Shown here: positions 27,179 to 39,059 of the stretch, in pieces
Position numbering within the stretch: the stretch's first letter is position 1
How the letters are laid out: each line of letters begins with the position of its first letter
Assembly (NCBI RefSeq): GCF_001748225.1
Contig: NZ_BDFE01000015.1
Span: 1-64,000, forward strand
Reading direction: 5' to 3'
Length of the DNA: 64,000 nt
From: Desulfoplanes formicivorans
Lineage (GTDB): Bacteria; Desulfobacterota; Desulfovibrionia; Desulfovibrionales; Desulfomicrobiaceae
Notes under the pieces: model-generated
Databases searched by the model: none
Seen by the model: the letters and a program-made list of their open reading frames with translations, nothing else
Told to the model about the DNA's origin: nothing
Translations under genes and position numbers: made by a program

Positions 27179-27939
27179 GTCTGGTTGAGTGGCTGGCGAC
27201 CAAAACGCCAGGATTGACCGCCTTTCCGCCATCACCGAACAACCATACTCTCAGGGTGGGCACGTCCTTTCCCTTTTGTTGTAAACAAAAACACCTCTTC
27301 GCATGTCAGCCCCCCACATCTGCCCTGTCTGAGCAAGACGCTGGTTGCCCAAAAATGCGTTCCAGGTCTTGCCCCTTACGGATCATGCGTTATATAGAAG
27401 CAATTATCCGAGGCGGTGTTTTCCGCTCCGCTTCCACAAGATTTGTCAACATTTCGTTGGTTCCGGGAATTTCGGGCACAAGGGACGAAATATTCTGGAA
27501 TGGGCTGGTAACAGCTTAGTTGTCGAGGCAATCCAACGGACCTTTCAAACGGCCCCGCTTCTTGAATACGACGCAAGGCGCTCCTTCCTGCTGATGCGTT
27601 GTTGCCAGCTCCCTGGTGGCCACCCCATACTCGGCCTGCCGGTCTGAGGACGCCACCAGGACAAATCCCCGGAAATCCCTCCCCGATACACCCTGACCAC
27701 CCTGGATGCATGCCCTTGCCCGCGGACACGCAGATCTTGCTGTTTGCACAACAGAATTCCTGTCTGGGGGTTGCCTGCCGACCTGCACCTGCTGCAACCC
27801 TTGTTCCGCATGCCAGGGCAGGGATATTGTATCTGTTGGCAAACACAACCCGGGTCGGGCTTGGGCCATATTTCGGCCATTGCAATGGCCACGGAAATCA
27901 AGGCAACGAGCCGGACCCGTGACAGCCAGGAGAATCGAT
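27179..27939. other. Long non-coding leader region before the GT/GH130 cluster
   Basis: Over 750 bases hold no supported gene. Visible elements are a small hairpin near 27280 (ttttgtt/aacaaaa), a weak promoter-like pair (TTGCCC about 27364 and TATATA about 27386), and a perfect 16-bp palindrome ggccattgcaatggcc at 27875-27890. A frame reading into the next gene from 27706 is Cys-rich and lacks a ribosome site, so I regard it as a read-through extension. Confidence 0.4.
27875..27890. promoter_or_regulatory. 16-bp perfect palindrome, possible operator
   Basis: ggccattgcaatggcc is its own reverse complement and ends 49 bases before the first gene of the glycosyltransferase/GH130 cluster. It could bind a dimeric regulator; no family is identifiable. 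Confidence 0.35.
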
Positions 27940-30270
27940 ATGCTTCAATCGGGAGACCATCCTTCGTACCCACAAAAAATCGCCCTCATCGGCAATCACC
28001 TGCCGCGCCAATGCGGCATTGCCACGTTTACCACGGATTTGCTGGCAAGCATGGCCCGGGAAAATCCCAAAGGCGAATGCTGGGCCGTGGTGATGAACGA
28101 TATGCCCGCAGGATACCGTTATCCCGCCCAGGTCCGCTTTGAAATCAACCAACGCGTTCTGGCCGAATACCGATTGGCAGCGGATTTTTTAAATACGAAC
28201 CGGGTGGACGTGGTTTGTCTGCAACATGAATTCGGCATTTTTGGCGGTGAAAACGGTGCGTATATCATGGACCTGCTCGGCAATTTGCGCATGCCGGTGA
28301 TCACCACCCTGCACACGGTGCTTCAGTCGCCATCGCCCGGCCAACTGGCCGTTATGAAACGCATTGCCAGCCTTTCCGACCGACTGGTGATCATGAGCCG
28401 CCACGCGCGTTCAATCCTGCAGCAGGTGTACAAGGTCCCACCATCAAAAATCGCCCTCATTCACCACGGCATCCCTGATGTGCCCTTTGTGGATCCCAAC
28501 TACTACAAGGACCAGTACGGGGTCGAGGGTCGCAAGGTCATTCTGACCTTTGGCCTCATTTCCCCCGGCAAGGGCATTGAAACCATGATCGATGCCCTGC
28601 CTGCCATTGTGGCCCGCCATCCTGAGACCGTGTACATGGTTCTTGGTGCAACCCATCCCCATGTCAAAAGGGAACAGGGCGAGTCCTACCGTTTGTCCCT
28701 GCAGCGCAGGGCCAATGATCTGGGCATTGGCGATCATCTCCTGTTCCACAATCGTTTTGTCAGTCTGGGGGAACTGTGTGAATTCCTGGGCGCAGCAGAC
28801 ATCTATGTAACCCCCTACCTGAATCAGGAACAGATTGTTTCCGGAACCCTGGCCTACGCCCTGGGCAGCGGCAAGGCCACCATTGCAACGCCCTACTGGT
28901 ATGCCAAGGAGATGCTGGCCAAGGGTCGCGGCCGCTTGGTGCCCTTTCATGATCCAAACGCCATGGCAACGCAGGTCAACGATCTTCTGGATCACGAAGT
29001 GGAGCGCCACGCCATGCGCAAACGGGCCTATACCTTTTGCCGCAAAATGATCTGGAAAGAAGTGGCCCGCAGATATCTGGCATTGTGCAACGAGGTAAAA
29101 GCAGAGCGGGCCCGCTCCCCCCGGCCGGTCTTTCGCGCCAGAACCGTGGACATGGCACCACGCGAGCTGCCCCAACCCAAGCTGGACCACATCATCCGCC
29201 TGTCCGACGACGTGGGTATGTTGCAGCACGCCACGTACATCGTGCCCAACCGGGATCACGGGTATTGCACCGACGACAACGCCCGGGCCCTCATTGCCGT
29301 GCTCATGGCCTGTGAAATGATCCCGGGCAGTGATGTTGCTGCGGATCTGGCCTGTACCTATCTCGGGTTTTTGCAACACGCCTTTAATGAAGAAACCGGC
29401 CGTTTTCGCAACTTCATGGGGTATGACCGACGCTGGCTTGAAGAAGTCGGGTCCGAAGACAGCCACGGCCGGGCGATCTGGGGCCTGGGCGAGGCAGTGG
29501 CCCTGGCCGAATCGGCCGATATCCGGCATGCGGCCCGGGGTGTGTTTGAAAAGGCGCTGCCCTTTTTGACAACATGCCGTTTTCCACGAACCTGGGCCTT
29601 TGCTCTGGTTGGCATGCATGCCTATCTGCGCCGGTACAGCGGCGACAGTGAAGTCCGACGCATCCGGGAAATCCTGGCAGATCGCCTTTTTCGCGCTCAC
29701 AGAAAAAACGCCACCCGGACATGGCCCTGGATCCAGGACCAGCTCACCTATGCCAACGGCAAAATCGCCCAGGCCCTGATTCTTTCGGGTCGATGCATGC
29801 ACAACAACGAAATGCTGGAAGCAGGATTGCAAAGTCTTGCATGGCTCATGAAAATACAGACCGACCCCAAGGGCCACTTTGTCCCGGTGGGCAACCACGG
29901 CTGGTATCCCAAAGACGGCACCAAGGCGCGGTTTGATCAGCAGCCCATTGAGGCCCTGGACATGATCGAAGCCTGTCGGGAAGCCCATGAAACCACCTGC
30001 GATCCCCAATGGGTTACCCATGCCCAATGTTGCATGGAATGGTTTCTGGGACGCAACGATCTGAACACCCCCTTGTACGACCACAAGAGCGGAGGCTGCT
30101 GCGACGGGCTCAATGCTGACGGTCCCAACCGCAACCAGGGGGCGGAATCCACCCTGGCCTGCTTTTTGTCCATGCTCCACCTCAACCGCATGCGCTGCAA
30201 CCAGATCGCAGTGGAGGCCCAAGAAAAGGAACCCATGCATCCCAGGGAGGTAGCCGACCATGTCTCATAA
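27940..30270 (+). CDS. GT4 glycosyltransferase with C-terminal toroid-like domain
   Basis: ATG 27940 follows ccaggag; the 78 codons read further upstream are rejected. The 776-residue protein starts KIALIGNHLPRQCGIATFTTDLL, a GT4 N-terminal fold, and has the donor domain VILTFGLISPGKGIETMIDAL, a TPYLNQEQIVSGTLAYALGSGKATI donor-binding segment and an end near residue 385. The second half (about 400-770) has no GT motif; RDHGYCTDDNARALIAVLMAC, GSEDSHGRAIWGLGEAV and repeated paired helices suggest an (alpha/alpha)6 toroid like epimerases or glycosidases. It is first of a five-gene run with another GT4, two GH130 proteins and a GT4-PMI fusion. Its stop overlaps the next start by 11 nt. The linkage made is unknown. 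Confidence 0.85.
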   Translation: MLQSGDHPSYPQKIALIGNHLPRQCGIATFTTDLLASMARENPKGECWAVVMNDMPAGYRYPAQVRFEINQRVLAEYRLAADFLNTNRVDVVCLQHEFGIFGGENGAYIMDLLGNLRMPVITTLHTVLQSPSPGQLAVMKRIASLSDRLVIMSRHARSILQQVYKVPPSKIALIHHGIPDVPFVDPNYYKDQYGVEGRKVILTFGLISPGKGIETMIDALPAIVARHPETVYMVLGATHPHVKREQGESYRLSLQRRANDLGIGDHLLFHNRFVSLGELCEFLGAADIYVTPYLNQEQIVSGTLAYALGSGKATIATPYWYAKEMLAKGRGRLVPFHDPNAMATQVNDLLDHEVERHAMRKRAYTFCRKMIWKEVARRYLALCNEVKAERARSPRPVFRARTVDMAPRELPQPKLDHIIRLSDDVGMLQHATYIVPNRDHGYCTDDNARALIAVLMACEMIPGSDVAADLACTYLGFLQHAFNEETGRFRNFMGYDRRWLEEVGSEDSHGRAIWGLGEAVALAESADIRHAARGVFEKALPFLTTCRFPRTWAFALVGMHAYLRRYSGDSEVRRIREILADRLFRAHRKNATRTWPWIQDQLTYANGKIAQALILSGRCMHNNEMLEAGLQSLAWLMKIQTDPKGHFVPVGNHGWYPKDGTKARFDQQPIEALDMIEACREAHETTCDPQWVTHAQCCMEWFLGRNDLNTPLYDHKSGGCCDGLNADGPNRNQGAESTLACFLSMLHLNRMRCNQIAVEAQEKEPMHPREVADHVS

Positions 30271-31486
30271 ACCCATTGTAATGGTCAGTTCCTATCCGCC
30301 CCGCTTGTGCGGCATTGCCACTTTTTGCGAGGAAGCCAGGGAGTTCATTCAAAAAGCCAACCCCCATCGAGAAGTGCTGGTCATCAGCCACACGGACGGT
30401 CGGGGCGAGGGCGTGTTCCCCCTCATTGACACGACAAAACGAGACTGGTGGCGGCCTGTTGCCCGAAAAATAGAACAACTCAAACCGTATGCGGTGCATG
30501 TTGAACACGAATACGGGCTGTACGAATATCACGATCCCCGGGGAGTGGGGGATGGCAACGATGGTTTTCTCGACCTCCTGGAGGCCATCGGCCATCTGCC
30601 CATTGTGGTGGAGCCCCATACGGTTCACGGGCGGCTCAGGGATTTTGAAGCTGATTTCATCTACAAGCTGACCCAGCGCAGCCACGTGGTGCTGTTCAAG
30701 TGCCACTACCAGAAGTGGCGGCTTGACTGGACCTTTCATGGCCGCAATTGGCCCACACCGCGCAACATCATGGTGGTCCCCCATGGAGCACGTTCCGACA
30801 AACGCTGGGGAGTCCATGAAATCCCGGCCCTGCGCAGGGAGTTCGGTCTGGACACCATCGGATTGTCCGACCACGTGGTGGGCATGATCGGCTGGATTCA
30901 GTCCAACAAACGCTGGGACATCCTTCTTTCCATGTGGGAGGATATCCATGCGGAGATCAAGGCACGCACCGGCCAGGAATGGGATCTGCTGGCCGCCGGT
31001 GCCATGCGTGATCCCCACCACAAAAGGGATTACGAAGAATGGAAATCAGATGTCCAGATGCTGGCAGGCAAGGGATTGGCCCATTATCACGAGTTCATCC
31101 CCCGGGGTGACGACTATTACAAGATGATGGCCATCTGCGATTTCATTGTCCTGCCCTCAACAGACGAAACCCAATCCGGCACCCTGGCCCGCATCATCGC
31201 TCTGAACAAACCCTACATCACCACCGCGCCCATGGAAGGACTCACGGCCCAGACCCTGGAAAGCCAAGGCGGCCTGCTCTTCACCACCAAGAAGATGCTC
31301 CGCAGCCAGGTGATCAAGCTGGCAACGGATGAAAACCTGCGCCTCAAACTGGGAGAAAATCTGAAACGCTATCTGGAAAACGAGGTCTGCTGGGAAGTGG
31401 TGGCCCAGCAGTACAACAAGGCGTATCAGCTGGCCCGCAAGGCCGTCCGAACCGGGCAACCCGTTGTACTGGAAATGGAATTTTAA
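30260..31486 (+). CDS. GT4 glycosyltransferase
   Basis: A 408-residue GT-B protein. It opens with IVMVSSYPPRLCGIATFCEEA, close to the start of the preceding enzyme, so the two share an ancestor. VHVEHEYGLYEYHDPRG, VVEPHTVHGRLRDFE, VVGMIGWIQSNKRWD (donor domain) and LPSTDETQSGTLARIIALNKP (donor-binding loop) are visible. Catalytic residues cannot be named from sequence. The gene overlaps its upstream neighbour by 11 nt and is followed after about 100 nt by the first GH130 gene. Probably a mannosyl- or glucosyltransferase, judging by the neighbours. Confidence 0.87.
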   Translation: MSHKPIVMVSSYPPRLCGIATFCEEAREFIQKANPHREVLVISHTDGRGEGVFPLIDTTKRDWWRPVARKIEQLKPYAVHVEHEYGLYEYHDPRGVGDGNDGFLDLLEAIGHLPIVVEPHTVHGRLRDFEADFIYKLTQRSHVVLFKCHYQKWRLDWTFHGRNWPTPRNIMVVPHGARSDKRWGVHEIPALRREFGLDTIGLSDHVVGMIGWIQSNKRWDILLSMWEDIHAEIKARTGQEWDLLAAGAMRDPHHKRDYEEWKSDVQMLAGKGLAHYHEFIPRGDDYYKMMAICDFIVLPSTDETQSGTLARIIALNKPYITTAPMEGLTAQTLESQGGLLFTTKKMLRSQVIKLATDENLRLKLGENLKRYLENEVCWEVVAQQYNKAYQLARKAVRTGQPVVLEMEF

Positions 31487-31586
31487 GACCTTGCCCAAGG
31501 CCATATTTCTTCTGAAACCAGAAAGGACATGCGGGGTTGCTGTCCGGCATCACCCTGGTCCTTGAAACACAAACCCCAAAACGATC

Positions 31587-32552
31587 ATGTGCCATACCAC
31601 CTGCAGGGAACTTTTTACCAGGTACACAGCCAATCCCATTATCCGGCCCCAGGACCTGCCTTATCAGGCCCATGCGGTGTTCAACGCCGGCGCCACCCGG
31701 TGGGGCAACACCACCGTGCTGCTCATGCGGGTGGAAGACCGCACCGGCCTCTCCCACCTGACCGTGGCGCGTAGTCAAGACGGGGTCACTGGCTGGCAGA
31801 TCGATGCCCAACCCACCCTCAAGGCTGATCCGCATAACCATCCAGAAGAAATCTGGGGCATCGAGGACCCCAGAATCACCCGCATCGAACAGGAGGATCT
31901 CTGGGCGGTCCTTTACACAGCCTATTCCCGGGGAGGCCCTCTGGTTGCCTTGGCCACCACGCGGGATTTTCGCACCTTTGAACGTCAGGGCGCGGTGCTG
32001 CCGCCTGCCAACAAGGATGCCGCCCTGTTCCCCGCGCGGTTCAACGGTAGATGGGCCATGCTCCACAGACCGGTTCCAGGCGTTGCCGGTGTGGGCAACC
32101 ATATATGGATTTCCATGAGTCCGGACCTGAAGCACTGGGGAGATCATCGCCTCCTTGTGCCGGCCCGCAAAGGAGGCTGGTGGGACGCCAACAAGATCGG
32201 TCTTTCACCGCCCCCGTTGCGAACTCCCAAGGGGTGGCTGCTTCTCTATCACGGAGTTCGCCAAACAGCCGGTGGCTGCATATACCGCTTGGGTCTGGCG
32301 CTGCTGGATCTCAAGGATCCGACCCGACTTGTGGCAAGAGCGGACCAATGGGTCTTTGGTCCTGAGGAAGACTATGAGATGCAGGGAGATGTGGACAAAG
32401 TGGTTTTTCCCTGTGGATGGGTAGCTGATGGTGACCGCATCAACCTGTACTACGGAGGTGCGGACAGGTGCATTGCCCTGGCCACAGCGCGTATTTCAGA
32501 TCTGCTCAAATGGCTTAAAACCCATAACCGACAGGATAATCATATGGAGTGA
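31587..32552 (+). CDS. GH130-family protein (beta-mannoside phosphorylase-like), copy 1
   Basis: A 321-residue five-bladed propeller protein. The catalytic acid motif WGIEDPRITRI places Asp at residue 94. NKDAALFPARFNGRWAMLHRP (about 142-162) keeps the K-D..LFP and H-R-P residues that bind phosphate in GH130 phosphorylases. NKIGLSPPPLRTPKGWLLLYHGV and VVFPCGW.. followed by YYGGADRCIALA complete the family pattern. Characterised members phosphorolyse beta-1,4- or beta-1,2-mannosides, and the related GT108 enzymes of Leishmania build beta-1,2-mannan. Position between glycosyltransferases favours a role in turnover or assembly of a mannoside. The next gene starts 3 nt after its stop. Confidence 0.88.
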   Translation: MCHTTCRELFTRYTANPIIRPQDLPYQAHAVFNAGATRWGNTTVLLMRVEDRTGLSHLTVARSQDGVTGWQIDAQPTLKADPHNHPEEIWGIEDPRITRIEQEDLWAVLYTAYSRGGPLVALATTRDFRTFERQGAVLPPANKDAALFPARFNGRWAMLHRPVPGVAGVGNHIWISMSPDLKHWGDHRLLVPARKGGWWDANKIGLSPPPLRTPKGWLLLYHGVRQTAGGCIYRLGLALLDLKDPTRLVARADQWVFGPEEDYEMQGDVDKVVFPCGWVADGDRINLYYGGADRCIALATARISDLLKWLKTHNRQDNHME

Positions 32553-32555
32553 ATC

Positions 32556-33908
32556 ATGAAAATCGCCATGTTATCACCCATTGCCTGGCGCACGCCCCCA
32601 CGACACTACGGCCCCTGGGAAAATGTGGTCTCCCTGCTCACAGAAGGATTGGTACGCCGGTGCATGGACGTGACCCTGTTTGCCACCCAGGACTCCATGA
32701 CCAGGGCACGGCTGCAGGGCGTTTGTCCCAGGGGATATGAAGAAGATGATCACATTCAGCCCAAGGTTTTTGAATGCCTGCATATTGCAAATGTCTTCGA
32801 GCAAGGCGACGCCTTTGACCTCATCCACAACCACTTTGACTATCTGCCCCTGACCTACTCGGGGATGACCCAAACCCCTGTGCTCACCACCATTCACGGG
32901 TTCTCGTCCCCCGATATCCTGCCTGTCTACAAGAAGTACAACAACCGATGCTCGTACGTGGCCATCAGTGAGGCGGACAAGTCGCCTGACCTCACTTACG
33001 CGGCCACCATTCACCATGGCATTGATCTGGGACAGTTCACCTTCCGACCCGAGCAGGGCGACTATCTGCTGTTTCTGGGCCGCATCCATCCGGACAAGGG
33101 CACGGCCCAGTGCATTGAAGTGGCTCAACGGACTGGAAGAAAACTCATCATTGCAGGCATTATCCAGGATCAGACCTATTTCCATACCCAGGTCAAACCC
33201 CATGTGGACGGTTCCCGCATCGTTTATGTGGGCAGCGTCGGTCCCCAACAACGCGACAAACTTATGGGAGGGGCCTACGCCCTGTTGCACCCCATTGATT
33301 TTGACGAACCCTTTGGCCTTTCCGTTGTGGAATCCATGGCCTGCGGCACTCCGGTGGTGGCCTTTGCCCGGGGCAGCATGCCGGAAATCATTGTCCACCA
33401 GAAGACCGGCTTTCTGACCAACCATGTGGACGAGATGGTCCAAGCCATTGACCTGGTGGGAGACCTTGACCGTGGAGCATGCCGGCAATGGGTCGAGGAA
33501 CGCTTTAGTGTGGACCGCATGGTCACCGACTATATGCGGGTGTACGAAACCATCATCAGGCAAAGCCGACGCCAGGACCACCGACCCTGGGGGTTTTATG
33601 AAGTCCTGGCCGACAAGCCGGATCACAAGGTCAAACGGATTACCGTGTATCCCGGCCAACGCCTGAGCTACCAGCGTCATTTCAGACGATCCGAACACTG
33701 GTACCTGATGCAGGGAACCGCCGTGATCACCCGAAACGGCCAGGACATCCGGCAAGGGCCCGGTCAGTCCTTGGATCTGCCTGTGGGTACCTGGCACCGC
33801 ATCCGCAATGCAGGACCGGACAATCTGGTGTTCATCGAGGTGCAGACAGGTGACTATTTTGGAGAGGATGACATTGAACGAAGGGAGGATGATTATGGCA
33901 GGGTCTGA
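32556..33908 (+). CDS. GT4 glycosyltransferase fused to type II PMI-like cupin
   Basis: ATG 32556 follows tggagtgaatc. Residues 1 to about 335 are a GT4 enzyme (AMLSPIAWRTPPRHYGPWENVVSLL, LIHNHFDYLPLTYS, LFLGRIHPDKGTAQCIEVA, HPIDFDEPFGLSVVESMACGTPVVAF with the E..x7..E donor motif). Residues about 343-450 match the C-terminal cupin of type II mannose-6-phosphate isomerases (RPWGFYEVLADKPDHKVKRI, LPVGTWHRIRN, IEVQTGDYFGEDDIERREDDYGR). One visible change: the family's H-x-H before the E-H-W reads QRHFRRSEHW, so the second His is Arg. The domain may therefore be a weak isomerase or a ligand sensor. The 3' end overlaps the next gene by 14 nt. Confidence 0.88.
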   Translation: MKIAMLSPIAWRTPPRHYGPWENVVSLLTEGLVRRCMDVTLFATQDSMTRARLQGVCPRGYEEDDHIQPKVFECLHIANVFEQGDAFDLIHNHFDYLPLTYSGMTQTPVLTTIHGFSSPDILPVYKKYNNRCSYVAISEADKSPDLTYAATIHHGIDLGQFTFRPEQGDYLLFLGRIHPDKGTAQCIEVAQRTGRKLIIAGIIQDQTYFHTQVKPHVDGSRIVYVGSVGPQQRDKLMGGAYALLHPIDFDEPFGLSVVESMACGTPVVAFARGSMPEIIVHQKTGFLTNHVDEMVQAIDLVGDLDRGACRQWVEERFSVDRMVTDYMRVYETIIRQSRRQDHRPWGFYEVLADKPDHKVKRITVYPGQRLSYQRHFRRSEHWYLMQGTAVITRNGQDIRQGPGQSLDLPVGTWHRIRNAGPDNLVFIEVQTGDYFGEDDIERREDDYGRV

Positions 33909-34842
33909 TGGCGCCATCATCCAACGGTACGACACCAACCCCATCCTGACCAGAGATGACGTTCCTTATCCGGTGGAAACCGTACACAACGCCGGCGTGG
34001 TCAAGCAGGGGGGCATGTACGTCATGCTCTTCAGATCTCACCTGCGCAACGGCCGGTCCATCATCGGGTTGGCCCGAAGCACCGATGGGGTGCGCTTCAC
34101 GGTTCATCCGAAACCCTTTATCACCCCGGCGCAAAAGGGGACCTTTGCCGAGTATGAGGCCTTTGGGGTGGAAGATCCGCGCATCTGCCCCATGGGAGAC
34201 GACTACCTGATCACCTATTCGGCCTATTCTCCCCACGGGGTACGGGTAGCCCTGGCCAGGACCACGGATTTTGAGCGGGTGGAACGCATCGCCCTCATCA
34301 CCCAGGCGGATTACCGCAATATCGTTCTCTTTCCGGAACAAACAGGCGGCCGGTACGTCCGACTGGACCGGCCCCATTCGAGTATTTCGCCCTGGTCCAT
34401 CTGGATTTCCTATTCACCGGATCTTGTGCATTGGGGGGATTCCCGGGTTGTCATGAAACCCATGGAGTATCATTGGGATGCCCTGAAAATAGGACCGGGC
34501 GCCACCCCCATCAAGACCCAACAGGGATGGCTGAACATCTTCCACGGCGTTTTCAAGACCATGGACGGCGCGGTCTACCGCCTGGGCGTGGCCCTGCATG
34601 ACCTGCACGATCCATCAAGGATTCTGGGCGTGGCCGACGACTGGATTCTGCAGCCCGAGGACCCCTGGGAAGTCAGCGGTTATGTGCATAATGTGGTTTT
34701 CTGCTGCGGGGCCGTACCCGAGGACGACGGCACGGTAAAGATATACTGGGGCGGGGCGGATACGGTCATGTGCGGCGGCACGGCATCCATTGCCGACCTG
34801 GTGGAACTCTGCCTTTCCAAACCCCGTCCCGCCCTGGGGTAA
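33895..34842 (+). CDS. GH130-family protein, copy 2
   Basis: ATG 33895 follows agggagg by 6 nt; the frame extends to 33808 inside the previous gene. The 315-residue product has the same fold as copy 1 (FGVEDPRICPM with Asp 94, DALKIGPGATPIKTQQGWLNIFHG, WGGADTVMC). In the phosphate region it differs: the K-D..LFP and HRP of copy 1 read YRNIVLFP and LDRP, so phosphorolysis may be lost or altered, and it belongs to another subgroup. The pair probably has divided labour. It ends the five-gene run, with 90 nt to the convergent pldA. Confidence 0.87.
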   Translation: MAGSDGAIIQRYDTNPILTRDDVPYPVETVHNAGVVKQGGMYVMLFRSHLRNGRSIIGLARSTDGVRFTVHPKPFITPAQKGTFAEYEAFGVEDPRICPMGDDYLITYSAYSPHGVRVALARTTDFERVERIALITQADYRNIVLFPEQTGGRYVRLDRPHSSISPWSIWISYSPDLVHWGDSRVVMKPMEYHWDALKIGPGATPIKTQQGWLNIFHGVFKTMDGAVYRLGVALHDLHDPSRILGVADDWILQPEDPWEVSGYVHNVVFCCGAVPEDDGTVKIYWGGADTVMCGGTASIADLVELCLSKPRPALG

Positions 34843-34934
34843 ACCTTTGTGATGCGGGATAATGCATGCGGGGCGCGCATCAGATGGATGTCGAGGGGTG
34901 TCGGGAGCGGTTGCCGACAGGCAGTTGAAACAGA

Positions 34935-35984
34935 CTAATCCCAGTCATTGAGGATAAATCCGATGCCGATCCTGTCCACGGCGTGATCGTAATCAATCAG
35001 GCTTTCACCGTATCCGGTAAAATACTGTATATATCCGTTGAGCTTGCGCCCCAGGGGAAAGGCCCATTCCAGCTGCAGGGCCCCCCGGTTGTGATCCCAC
35101 CGGCAGTTGTTCCGCCACATAGCCCCGAGTCGGTGCCCCCCCAGAAGATAGTGGACCCACAGCTCACCCGGGCCCATGTATTCGTCAATGTCGGGATTGT
35201 CGTCCTCACCCTGGGATTCGGGAATGCGGTACCAGGTCTTGAGCTGAACAACAAAATCATCATATTCAAGGCCCAGATTGCCCACCACCCGGTTCCAGCT
35301 CCGGGACAGGGACTCGGCCCGCCCGTTGGACTGATGATTGAGACCAACGGTTACCGTTCGCAAGTGCACGCCCAGGACATTCCAGTCGGTCCTGTAATTG
35401 AGAAGCACTTCGGGCTCGTAATTGGTCTCCCTGAAGGGTGCGGACTCATCCACATTGTACAACTGCCAAAAGGAACGCTGGGTATACCCGAACCAGAGAT
35501 CCATGTTCTGGCCAAGGACGTCCTGCCACAGCTTGACCTTCATGCTCAACTGAAACGCCACTTCGGCGTTTTTGACCGTATCCACCTCTCCGGTGTGATC
35601 GTGATTGGGGGACTTGTTGTAGGTAAAGGGCAGAATGTAATTATCCCGATGGGGCATGAAGGCGAACCGTCCCCTGGGACCGGATTCGTCAAGCTCCCAA
35701 TGCCTGGTCAGGTAGGAGGGTTCATCGTCCTCTGGCGAAATGCGGACAGCGGGTGCCCCATCCTCTTCTTCCCCGACAGGCGGTTTTGACCTTTCAGGCA
35801 TCTGTTCAGCACCAGTGCTTGACGCCAACCGGTCATAGCATTGAAGGCGCAGGGTATCGTCCTTGATGCAGGCGCATTGTTCAAGGCTTTGCGGCTCTCC
35901 GGCCCAGAGAACTGGAAGCGGGAGCCATTGGGACATCAAAACGGCCGCCATCAGGCCGACGAGCAGTCTTGGTACGTGTTTCAT
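34935..35984 (-). CDS. pldA: Outer membrane phospholipase A
   Basis: ATG 35984 follows aaggtgg and gives a signal peptide (MKHVPRLLVGLMAAVLMSQWLPLPVLWAG); the frame extends further but without a ribosome site. The 349-residue protein has an acidic N-terminal region and a beta-barrel rich in alternating hydrophobic residues. GLNHQSNGRAESLSRSWNRVVGN holds the catalytic His, Ser and Asn with the spacing of OMPLA (Ser to Asn 12 residues). It hydrolyses outer-membrane phospholipids when asymmetry is lost. An insert with two Cys (CACIKDDTLRLQCYD) in the mature N-terminus may be structural. It ends 92 nt from the convergent GH130 gene. Confidence 0.9.
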   Translation of the reverse strand: MKHVPRLLVGLMAAVLMSQWLPLPVLWAGEPQSLEQCACIKDDTLRLQCYDRLASSTGAEQMPERSKPPVGEEEDGAPAVRISPEDDEPSYLTRHWELDESGPRGRFAFMPHRDNYILPFTYNKSPNHDHTGEVDTVKNAEVAFQLSMKVKLWQDVLGQNMDLWFGYTQRSFWQLYNVDESAPFRETNYEPEVLLNYRTDWNVLGVHLRTVTVGLNHQSNGRAESLSRSWNRVVGNLGLEYDDFVVQLKTWYRIPESQGEDDNPDIDEYMGPGELWVHYLLGGHRLGAMWRNNCRWDHNRGALQLEWAFPLGRKLNGYIQYFTGYGESLIDYDHAVDRIGIGFILNDWD

Positions 35985-37422: not shown

Positions 37423-37602
37423 ATCTGTTCAAAGATCACCGTGGACCGCCTGGAAGCTTTCCACGATGTATGATGGACTGGATTTTAGTGGACAACTTCC
37501 CTATACAAGGTTGCGCCACCACCAATATGCTGTCGTTGTTTCTGGTACGTGCATAATGGGTGCACTATGCGACGCAGCCCTCATCCTGTCAAGAAGGAAA
37601 CC

Positions 37603-38394
37603 ATGTACACACTGCCGCTGCCCCTGATCCCCACGTCCTTCATCAGCCTCGTTCTCGGTCTGGTGCTCGGAAGTTTCTACAACGTCTGCATTTTCCGCTA
37701 CCTTGCCGGCACATCCATTGTCCGCCCCGGTTCCCATTGTCCGGGATGCGGTCATGTTCTGGCCTGGTGGGAAAACATCCCGGTCCTCAGTTATCTTCTG
37801 CTGGGGGGAAAATGCCGGTCCTGCAAGGCATCCATCTCCCTGCAATACCCGCTGGTGGAGCTCCTTTCGGGCATACTGGCCCTGCTGCTGGCCCTGCGTT
37901 TCGGTCTGGGCGCCACCTGGCTCGTGTACATGATTCTCACGGGACTGCTCATTGTCGGCAGCTTCATCGACCTGCACAGCTTCATTCTGCCCGATATCAT
38001 CACCCTTCCGGGAGCGGCCATTGCCCTGGCCGGATCATTTCTCTTTCCCCAGGGCGTTGTCAGCAGCCTCGTGGGAGCCCTGGCCGGAGCCGGGCTGTTT
38101 CTCTTCATTCAGCAGACCTACCGACTGCTCAGGAACATCGAAGGGTTGGGAACCGGAGACATCAAGCTCATGCTCATGCTCGGGGCCATGACCGGATGGC
38201 AGGGACTGCCCATCATGATTTTTCTTTCAGCCACAACCGGCCTGGTGGTCAGCCTGGTCTATCTGAAAAAGGACAAGAGGCTGGACATGAAAACAGCCAT
38301 TCCCTTTGGGCCGTTTTTGAGCATGGGGACCATGCTCTATGTCCTGTGGGGGCAACAAATATGGAACCTGTATCTGGGACTGTTGTCGAAATGA
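37603..38394 (+). CDS. Prepilin peptidase (A24 family)
   Basis: ATG 37603 follows aagaagga; the frame runs 18 codons further up without a ribosome site. The 263-residue protein has an N-terminal membrane helix, the two C-x2-C pairs HCPGC and GKCRSC of the methylation domain, then seven or so helices with the catalytic aspartates in FIDLHSFILPDIIT and LGTGDIKLMLMLG (GD-x-K). It cleaves and N-methylates type IV pilin-like leaders. It overlaps mobA by 4 nt. No pilin genes are in the window. Confidence 0.93.
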   Translation: MYTLPLPLIPTSFISLVLGLVLGSFYNVCIFRYLAGTSIVRPGSHCPGCGHVLAWWENIPVLSYLLLGGKCRSCKASISLQYPLVELLSGILALLLALRFGLGATWLVYMILTGLLIVGSFIDLHSFILPDIITLPGAAIALAGSFLFPQGVVSSLVGALAGAGLFLFIQQTYRLLRNIEGLGTGDIKLMLMLGAMTGWQGLPIMIFLSATTGLVVSLVYLKKDKRLDMKTAIPFGPFLSMGTMLYVLWGQQIWNLYLGLLSK

Positions 38395-39059
38395 TCAGAT
38401 GTCCGGGACTCCAGGGTGTGGTTCTGGCCGGCGGCAAGAGTCTGCGCATGGGCAAGGACAAGGCCGGGGTGGTTTTCCGTGGCCAGAATCTGGTGGAGCG
38501 TGCTGTCCATGTGCTGGAAAAACTGTGTGACCGGGTCTGGATAGCAGGAAGGGACGCACGTGAACACGGGCTGTCCAATCCCTGGTTTCTGGATGACGCG
38601 CCCGGCAAGGGTCCCCTTCGCGGTATTGTGACCGCATTGGAACATATTGGAGCGCCGTGCATGTTTTTACCCTGTGATCTCCCCTTGATGGACGTGTCTA
38701 CGGCAGCGTTGCTGATCAAGGCCTACATGACCCGGCCCCCCCATACCCTGCGCACGGATTTCATCCAGCAGGAAACAGGCTTCATCGAGGCATTGGTAGC
38801 CATTTACGACCCCGGCTGCATCCCCCATATCCACCAGGCCCTCAGGAAGAAACAATACAAGGTTGCTCCGGCCATTCCCGACGCCTTGTGTGTGCATGTT
38901 CCCTATGCAAAATCCCATTCGCGGCCCTTTTTGAACGTCAACTATCCCCACGATCTCCAATTGCTCCACCAGGCTGCAGATCAGTTCTGTCTTCTGCCCG
39001 AGACCAAGAAATCCCGGTTCAACAACGCCGACGTGGACGCACCTGCTCCCAAGTCATAG
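38391..39059 (+). CDS. mobA: Molybdenum cofactor guanylyltransferase MobA
   Basis: ATG 38391 overlaps the prepilin peptidase stop by 4 nt, giving 222 residues. GVVLAGGKSLRMGKDKAGVVF is the nucleotide-binding loop of MobA-type NTP transferases, and FLPCDLPLMDVSTAALL the metal site. It attaches GMP to molybdopterin to give the bis-MGD cofactor used by DMSO-reductase-like enzymes. The last 40 residues are less conserved. A connection with the tup/mosB-like genes 15 kb away is by function only. Confidence 0.9.
   Translation: MIRCPGLQGVVLAGGKSLRMGKDKAGVVFRGQNLVERAVHVLEKLCDRVWIAGRDAREHGLSNPWFLDDAPGKGPLRGIVTALEHIGAPCMFLPCDLPLMDVSTAALLIKAYMTRPPHTLRTDFIQQETGFIEALVAIYDPGCIPHIHQALRKKQYKVAPAIPDALCVHVPYAKSHSRPFLNVNYPHDLQLLHQAADQFCLLPETKKSRFNNADVDAPAPKS

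Follow-up and report, generated by a model that had tools for sequence, protein, structure and literature searches.

The window, a stretch of 64,000 nucleotides from Desulfoplanes formicivorans (contig NZ_BDFE01000015.1, positions 1 to 64,000), has a cassette of five + strand genes at 27940-34842, which are called A to E here. They were assigned from their coordinates and Pfam matches as follows.

Gene A, 27940..30270, + strand: GT4 transferase (residues ~1-395) fused to a predicted (alpha/alpha)6 toroid (residues ~405-760); from Pfam, sequence matches, an AlphaFold model and a profile search
Gene B, 30260..31486, + strand: GT4-like transferase with a predicted GT-B fold; from Pfam, a structure model and 13 homologues that are 58-83% identical
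Gene C, 31587..32552, + strand: GH130 protein of clade C with an NKD motif; from Pfam, alignment and tree
Gene D, 32556..33908, + strand: GT4 transferase resembling the glucosyltransferase TeGSS (residues 1-330) fused to a MannoseP_isomer cupin (residues 331-450); from Pfam and a PDB sequence match
Gene E, 33895..34842, + strand: GH130 protein of clade E with a YRN motif; from Pfam, alignment and tree; ATG start at 33895

An earlier sequence-only reading had described five genes on one strand with this domain content, separated by overlaps of 11-14 nucleotides or by tiny gaps. The coordinates bear out the shared strand, and Pfam together with the predicted toroid fold bears out the domains. 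The overlaps are present (11 nucleotides between A and B, 14 between D and E), as is the small gap of 3 nucleotides between C and D, but the gap of 100 nucleotides between B and C is not tiny. GT4-type domains score above the Pfam cut-offs in A, B and D. The GH130 model PF04041 scores 192.6 bits in C and 188.2 bits in E against a cut-off of 26, and the C-terminus of D matches PF01050 above its cut-off with 109.8 bits. C and E are the only PF04041 matches in the host genome (3,000,979 bases in 26 contigs). The region 27300-35100 contains 5 promoter-like sites (shuffled mean 3.6, standard deviation 1.8) and 9 terminator-like sites (shuffled mean 7.5, standard deviation 2.7). Since both counts are near the shuffled means, it is only the overlaps that suggest transcription as one unit. 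Judged by Kyte-Doolittle hydropathy, A to E have no signal peptide or membrane helix; the highest 19-residue mean is 1.61.

The cassette may make and remodel an endogenous cytoplasmic oligosaccharide containing beta-linked mannose, with GT4 and GH130 enzymes acting as partner pairs. This reading is held with moderate confidence. It is built on the gene content and order given above and on the conservation, module pairing and active-site residues described in the following paragraphs.

The sequence-only reading had treated the five genes as a set, and the set does recur elsewhere, in versions across many phyla. A survey of the phylum, in which 297 genomes were searched with A, found full-length A in 32 genomes and a split A in 1 more, for a total of 33. 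Short or split matches in G137, G094, G108 and G001:C237 were left out of the loci; among these genomes, G137 still entered the total of A genomes, whereas G094 and G108 did not. GH130 occurs in 63 of the 297 genomes, 60 of which pass the Pfam cut-off. A and GH130 are found together in 31 of the 33 A genomes, compared with 32 of the 264 others (Fisher p 3e-22). A further 80 named loci came from a profile search of genome contigs with the A alignment; they are the best 80 of 581 relatives and are therefore biased toward close relatives. These loci have 16 phylum labels, 13 of them with GH130 in the stretch, and include one archaeal metagenome-assembled genome. The labels include Thermodesulfobacteriota, Acidobacteriota, Chloroflexota, Verrucomicrobiota and Planctomycetota, and the named strains include Desulfobacter vibrioformis, Anaerolinea thermolimosa and Aquisphaera insulae. 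Because many of the named loci are from metagenome-assembled genomes, single phylum labels may be wrong. Together with 35 stretches from the phylum survey and the window, the named loci give 116 A loci, among which four genomes contribute two loci apiece, L038 and L071 have identical sequences, and other overlaps between the sets are possible.

GH130 is present in 103 of the 116 A loci and is the next cassette gene in 62. A same-strand cassette gene follows A within 400 nucleotides in 95 loci, and in 80 of these the gap is at most 30 nucleotides, counting overlaps and with unrefined starts. The gene after A is C in 37 loci, F in 22, B in 20, D in 13, a partial GH130 in 3 and none in 21, where F is a third GH130 type of about 490 residues that is absent from the window. 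The gene orders include A-B-C-D-E in 7 loci (the window among them), A-C alone in 28, A-F alone in 15, A-D-E-F in 10 and A alone in 9. The gene classes depend on score cut-offs of our own choice, and the module counts include partial matches. D and E occur together in 33 loci, D alone in 14 and E alone in 2 (Fisher p 1e-15, with related loci counted as independent in this and the other pairing tests), and E directly follows D in 31 of the 33. C and F are nearly exclusive (both in 4 loci, C only in 53, F only in 43), and B is found with F in 0 of 21.

Clustering of 845 other open reading frames (ORFs) gave no general conserved neighbor outside the cassette; the widest cluster spans 11 loci and is radical-SAM-like by eye, an ATP-binding cassette (ABC) ATPase cluster spans 7, and permease-like clusters span 3 each. 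From this clustering and predicted membrane segments, no transporter is general beside the 116 loci. A neighbor with at least 4 predicted membrane segments lies within 3 kb at 26 loci, and these neighbors are diverse by eye. Only 1 of 314 classified members, an F protein, has a membrane segment. The earlier statement that no transporter or signal peptide points to catabolism of an outside sugar is supported; none of the five genes is a transporter. That A to E have no membrane segments and that no transporter is general both argue for a cytoplasmic product.

The two GH130 proteins have TM1225 (1vkd), a beta-1,4-mannooligosaccharide phosphorylase, as their best PDB match (212.8 bits for C and 195 for E), yet TM1225 falls outside clades C and E, and C has NKD rather than NRN. 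The GH130 tree was built by a quick method from 67 sampled rows (21 C, 15 E, 12 F) with five characterized references. C, E and F each form one branch with a Shimodaira-Hasegawa-like approximate likelihood-ratio (SH-aLRT) support of 100, and none of the five references is inside. Neither C nor E thus shares a clade with one of these five enzymes, which agrees with the sequence-only reading. Both window proteins contain EDPR, the Asp of which we take to be the catalytic Asp of GH130; aligned with the five references, the motif reads EDPRIT in clade C, ED.R in E and EDaR in F. In both proteins the Arg of HRP/DRP, the Lys before IG and the His of HG are all present. Three basic phosphate-binding residues separate GH130 phosphorylases from hydrolases (PMC4599007), and the Arg, Lys and His columns presumably correspond to these ligands. 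The Lys is kept in 70-95% of clade C and is mostly Gln in F. C reads NKD, as do the beta-1,2-mannoside phosphorylases Lin0857, Teth514_1788 and Teth514_1789, and judging from its spacing the lysine would be the one named as the beta-1,2 determinant (PMC4599007). E reads YRN, with the Arg-Asn found in the NRN of two beta-1,4 enzymes.

The NCBIfam equivalog models score below their cut-offs (C 255.5 against 550 and 218.5 against 450; E 241.1 against 550 and 204.3 against 450). The GT108 structure 6Q50 is not among the 18 matches of C or E at E 0.001 in sequence searches, which did not include a GT108 profile. Uhgb_MS, a GH130 protein named 'mannoside synthase' in the PDB (9eqq, 9erg, 9erh), is matched by C with 172-173 bits and by E with about 150. 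It shares the GH130 fold of the family of C and E and is named a synthase, but is not among their closest matches; synthesis by GH130 therefore has a named precedent. The F proteins (L044:217-1707 and 43 further proteins aligned) have an N-terminal extension of ~250 residues, and their best PDB match is 9fj8, a 1,2-beta-oligomannan phosphorylase.

The transferase half of D is by far nearest to tll1591 (7fg9, 8x3q; 288 bits over 330 residues), and its GT-B fold is assigned by the match to 7fg9. The tll1591 protein is TeGSS, which produces glucosylsucrose from UDP-glucose and sucrose (PMC9909042). D shares with TeGSS (7fg9, 7fga) the transferase and its catalytic residues, since Tyr18, Arg179, Lys184 and both glutamates of EPFGxxxxE are retained in the alignment, but it adds a cupin and has an Ala aligned with the sucrose-site Trp10. 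Because the nearest enzyme uses UDP-glucose, the term 'mannose-rich' does not follow for the step catalyzed by D.

The cupin of D had been placed in a mannose-6-phosphate family, and the PF01050 match agrees with this, but one metal ligand is missing. The metal site of type II phosphomannose isomerase is HxH...E...H. D has three of these four ligands, but Arg replaces the second His (H-F-R, compared with H-M-H in the ManC of L061). This position is variable among 22 cupin-bearing D proteins, and our search gave no cupin match in 25 of 47 D proteins, some of which run off the contig end. Since it lacks one metal ligand, the cupin probably does not function as the isomerase. The host encodes a complete ManC (543.6 bits against a cut-off of 372.95) at C15:102497-103867, about 68 kb from the cassette, so an isomerase role for D is not required; the genome also has phosphoglucomutase/phosphomannomutase (PGM/PMM) genes.

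The N-terminal half of A has PimA and MshA as its closest sequence matches. The AlphaFold model of A has a predicted local distance difference test (pLDDT) score of 86.7 and a predicted template modeling score (pTM) of 0.64, and because of the latter the relative placement of the two halves is uncertain. For the C-terminal half the model predicts an (alpha/alpha)6 toroid, whose top structural match is 7tem (Z 38.4, 335 residues, 2.6 Å), followed by cellobiose 2-epimerases (Z about 30). The toroid of window A has no Pfam match at E 1. When 15 toroids were combined into a profile, it matched 7tem at E 5e-19 and no other protein below E 0.3; weak Pfam matches occur among these 15 members to GH127 (3), C5-epimerase (2) and GH88 (2). 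Therefore the fold is shared with both 7tem and the AGE/cellobiose 2-epimerase proteins, whereas a sequence relation is seen only to 7tem (YPO2471, an exported protein of unknown function), from which A differs in having its toroid fused to a GT4. Many polar residues are invariant across 34 A proteins, the others being 40-75% identical to window A, which hints at an active site. B is modeled with a GT-B fold (pLDDT 85.3), and its best structural matches are tied at Z 24-25 (sucrose-phosphate synthase 6kih, BshA, MshA and GlgM). It has no PDB sequence match at E 0.001. The alignment of B with its 13 homologues has a mean column identity of 77%.

Since enzymes of the GT4 family retain the anomeric configuration, the linkages formed by A, B and D should be alpha. 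We know of no GH130 enzyme that cleaves alpha linkages. In a self-contained cassette, C and E would then have to form the beta-mannosyl bond, either through reverse phosphorolysis of mannose 1-phosphate or in a GT108-like manner; a beta-mannosyltransferase elsewhere in the genome is another possible source. In the scheme that we infer, two retaining GT4s, A and the transferase half of D, would each work with a GH130 of their own, A with C (or with F at other loci) and D with E. The GT4s would add alpha-linked sugars from nucleotide sugars, probably glucose in the case of D, and those added by A and B could include mannose. C and E may reversibly move mannose between alpha-mannose 1-phosphate and beta-mannosyl ends, and would thus either attach beta-mannose or recover it as mannose 1-phosphate for the host ManC. 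The toroid of A may trim or modify the product. A pairing of one GT with one GH130 would fit a two-step extension or a cap-and-recover cycle, and the product could serve as a solute, as a reserve or as a precursor.

Synthesis and turnover of an endogenous sugar is favored over catabolism because C and E form clades of their own with catalytic and basic residues kept, and because neither a membrane segment nor a general transporter is associated with the cassette. The organic acids listed as the host's carbon source, its own ManC and PGM/PMM genes, the clusters L157-L159 described below and the GH130 protein named as a synthase also count in favor. To this extent the earlier proposal of a system that makes and recycles a mannose-rich sugar is retained. 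The 'mannose-rich' part is not established, given the proximity of D to TeGSS and the absent metal ligand of its cupin.

Several observations weigh against an endogenous beta-mannose-containing product. No member of clades A, B, C, E or F has an activity known to us. In the tree, C adjoins two beta-1,4 references (support 81) despite its beta-1,2-like motif, and for this reason its linkage is left uncertain. The nearest characterized relative of the D transferase is a glucosyltransferase. Two of the 33 A genomes, G024 and G177, have no PF04041 match, although G177 has a fragment at a contig end. Likewise, 13 of the 116 A loci have no GH130 in the stretch; in 8 of these the stretch ends within about 2.5 kb of A, whereas in L043, L070, L074, L096 and L098 it runs on for about 8-9 kb and still contains no GH130. 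The host genome also contains a GlgA-type gene and a partial GT35 match. Since glycogen-type genes are present, the cassette is not a simple replacement reserve, and that candidate was rejected. The description of the host strain Pf12B lists organic acids as the carbon source, but its accessible part does not mention sugar tests (PMC5460402). Finally, the cluster Teth514_1785-1796 of Thermoanaerobacter sp. X-514 was read by its authors as a salvage system for imported oligomannan (PMC4264767).

The product could instead be an endogenous, mainly glucose-based hetero-oligosaccharide or compatible solute (sucrose-like or glucosylated), with the GH130s acting on another sugar or in capping and with no mannose-rich glycan. 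This is unlikely, but it is the best of the alternatives, since D is closest to a UDP-Glc:sucrose alpha-1,2-glucosyltransferase and keeps its catalytic residues. The TeGSS product is linked to stress in cyanobacteria (PMC9909042), and strain Pf12B has its optimum at 1-4% NaCl and 42-45 °C (PMC5460402). However, the characterized GH130 cases in the accessible literature act on beta-mannosides, the cupin of D belongs to a mannose-phosphate family and no sucrose pathway stands out. Sucrose was considered as the acceptor of D and rejected, since the host has only a weak match to the haloacid dehalogenase (HAD) family PF05116 (29.8 bits, cut-off 20.3), with no synthase recognized beside it by eye. 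As PF05116 is also matched in 11 of 14 control genomes, this match says little.

It is improbable that the cassette serves salvage, in which an imported beta-mannoside would be phosphorolysed by C and E to mannose 1-phosphate for GDP-mannose and GT4-made glycans. The Thermoanaerobacter cluster, which has two GH130s, a GT4, ManC, a GH5 and an ABC transporter, supports such a role and is the nearest published precedent in the literature accessible to us; like the window, it combines two GH130s beside a GT4, phosphorylases and a mannose 1-phosphate link (PMC4264767). The ABC ATPase and permease-like clusters beside some loci also fit. Unlike that cluster, the window cassette is without ManC, GH5 and ABC transporter, and the toroid and TeGSS-cupin fusions are not mentioned in the accessible part of the paper (PMC4264767). 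In addition, no transporter is general beside the 116 loci, the host is listed with organic acids as its carbon source, and the tree places Teth514_1788/1789 in a different clade from C and E.

The least probable alternative is glycosylation of a surface molecule, lipid or protein with the GH130s trimming errors. In its favor, GT4 enzymes often serve surface glycans, and A and B resemble PimA- and MshA-type folds. Against it, the loci share no general neighbor that is a membrane protein, flippase or polymerase, and the multi-segment membrane neighbors at 26 of the 116 loci are diverse by eye.

A bolder form of the favored reading would make the cassette a bacterial counterpart of the mannogen cycle. 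The beta-propeller GT108 enzymes of Leishmania build and phosphorolyse the beta-mannan reserve mannogen (via PMC8950772). Their likeness to C and E is in the idea of how they work only: Pfam places C and E in GH130, and in the cassette three GT4s accompany them. In such a counterpart, spread over many phyla, the GH130s would be mainly beta-mannosyl synthases paired one-to-one with retaining GT4s (A with C or F, D with E), the product would be an as yet undescribed oligosaccharide solute or reserve with mixed alpha and beta linkages, and the GT4-toroid would be the hallmark. This extension is tentative and rather unlikely.

The cassette brings known kinds of enzymes together in a wide modular arrangement. 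No description of it was found in the literature on GH130, GT4 and mannogen systems that was covered, which excluded subscription papers and preprints. Its recurrence across phyla points to an undescribed internal mannose-containing sugar. GH130 is best known for degrading plant, fungal or host mannosides, with one PDB-named 'mannoside synthase'; if the favored reading is true, many bacteria from the environment would produce their own glycan with beta-linked mannose. The cassette also offers candidate enzymes for the synthesis of beta-mannosides, a chemically hard linkage. D. formicivorans is non-pathogenic and has a cultured type strain in which to seek the product.

Related clusters combine GT4 and GH130 without the toroid. 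In 16 further genomes, a toroid-less GT4 weakly related to A lies right beside a GH130 by its coordinates. Eight such stretches were viewed; the pair is visible in six (L149-L154), with three GH130s in a row in L153, and is hidden by the longest-ORF choice in L148 and L155. Two GH130s are present in each of L157-L159; a guanylyltransferase accompanies them in L157 and L159, and a MannoseP_isomer cupin in L158 and L159. L159 also has an inositol-3-phosphate synthase, a GH5-like gene and a DUF6178 gene. Some neighbors in L157-L159 are GT4-like by eye, but neither of the two tested in L159 matches a Pfam or NCBIfam model. One GH130 of each of these three loci groups with Teth514_1788/1789 in the tree. 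The three resemble the Thermoanaerobacter cluster (PMC4264767), but no ABC transporter was recognized by eye in their ORF lists.

Some longer frames also contain GH130-like parts. A 1214-residue open frame at L156:3220-6864 follows a GT4, and others are found in G169 (1188 residues) and G176 (764). Frames of ~900 residues in G016:C14 and G242:C128 have many short partial GH130 matches and are perhaps other propeller proteins. Downstream of the cassette, at 37549-39059 of the window, a prepilin-peptidase-like gene is closely followed by a MobA-like reading in another frame, both recognized by eye.

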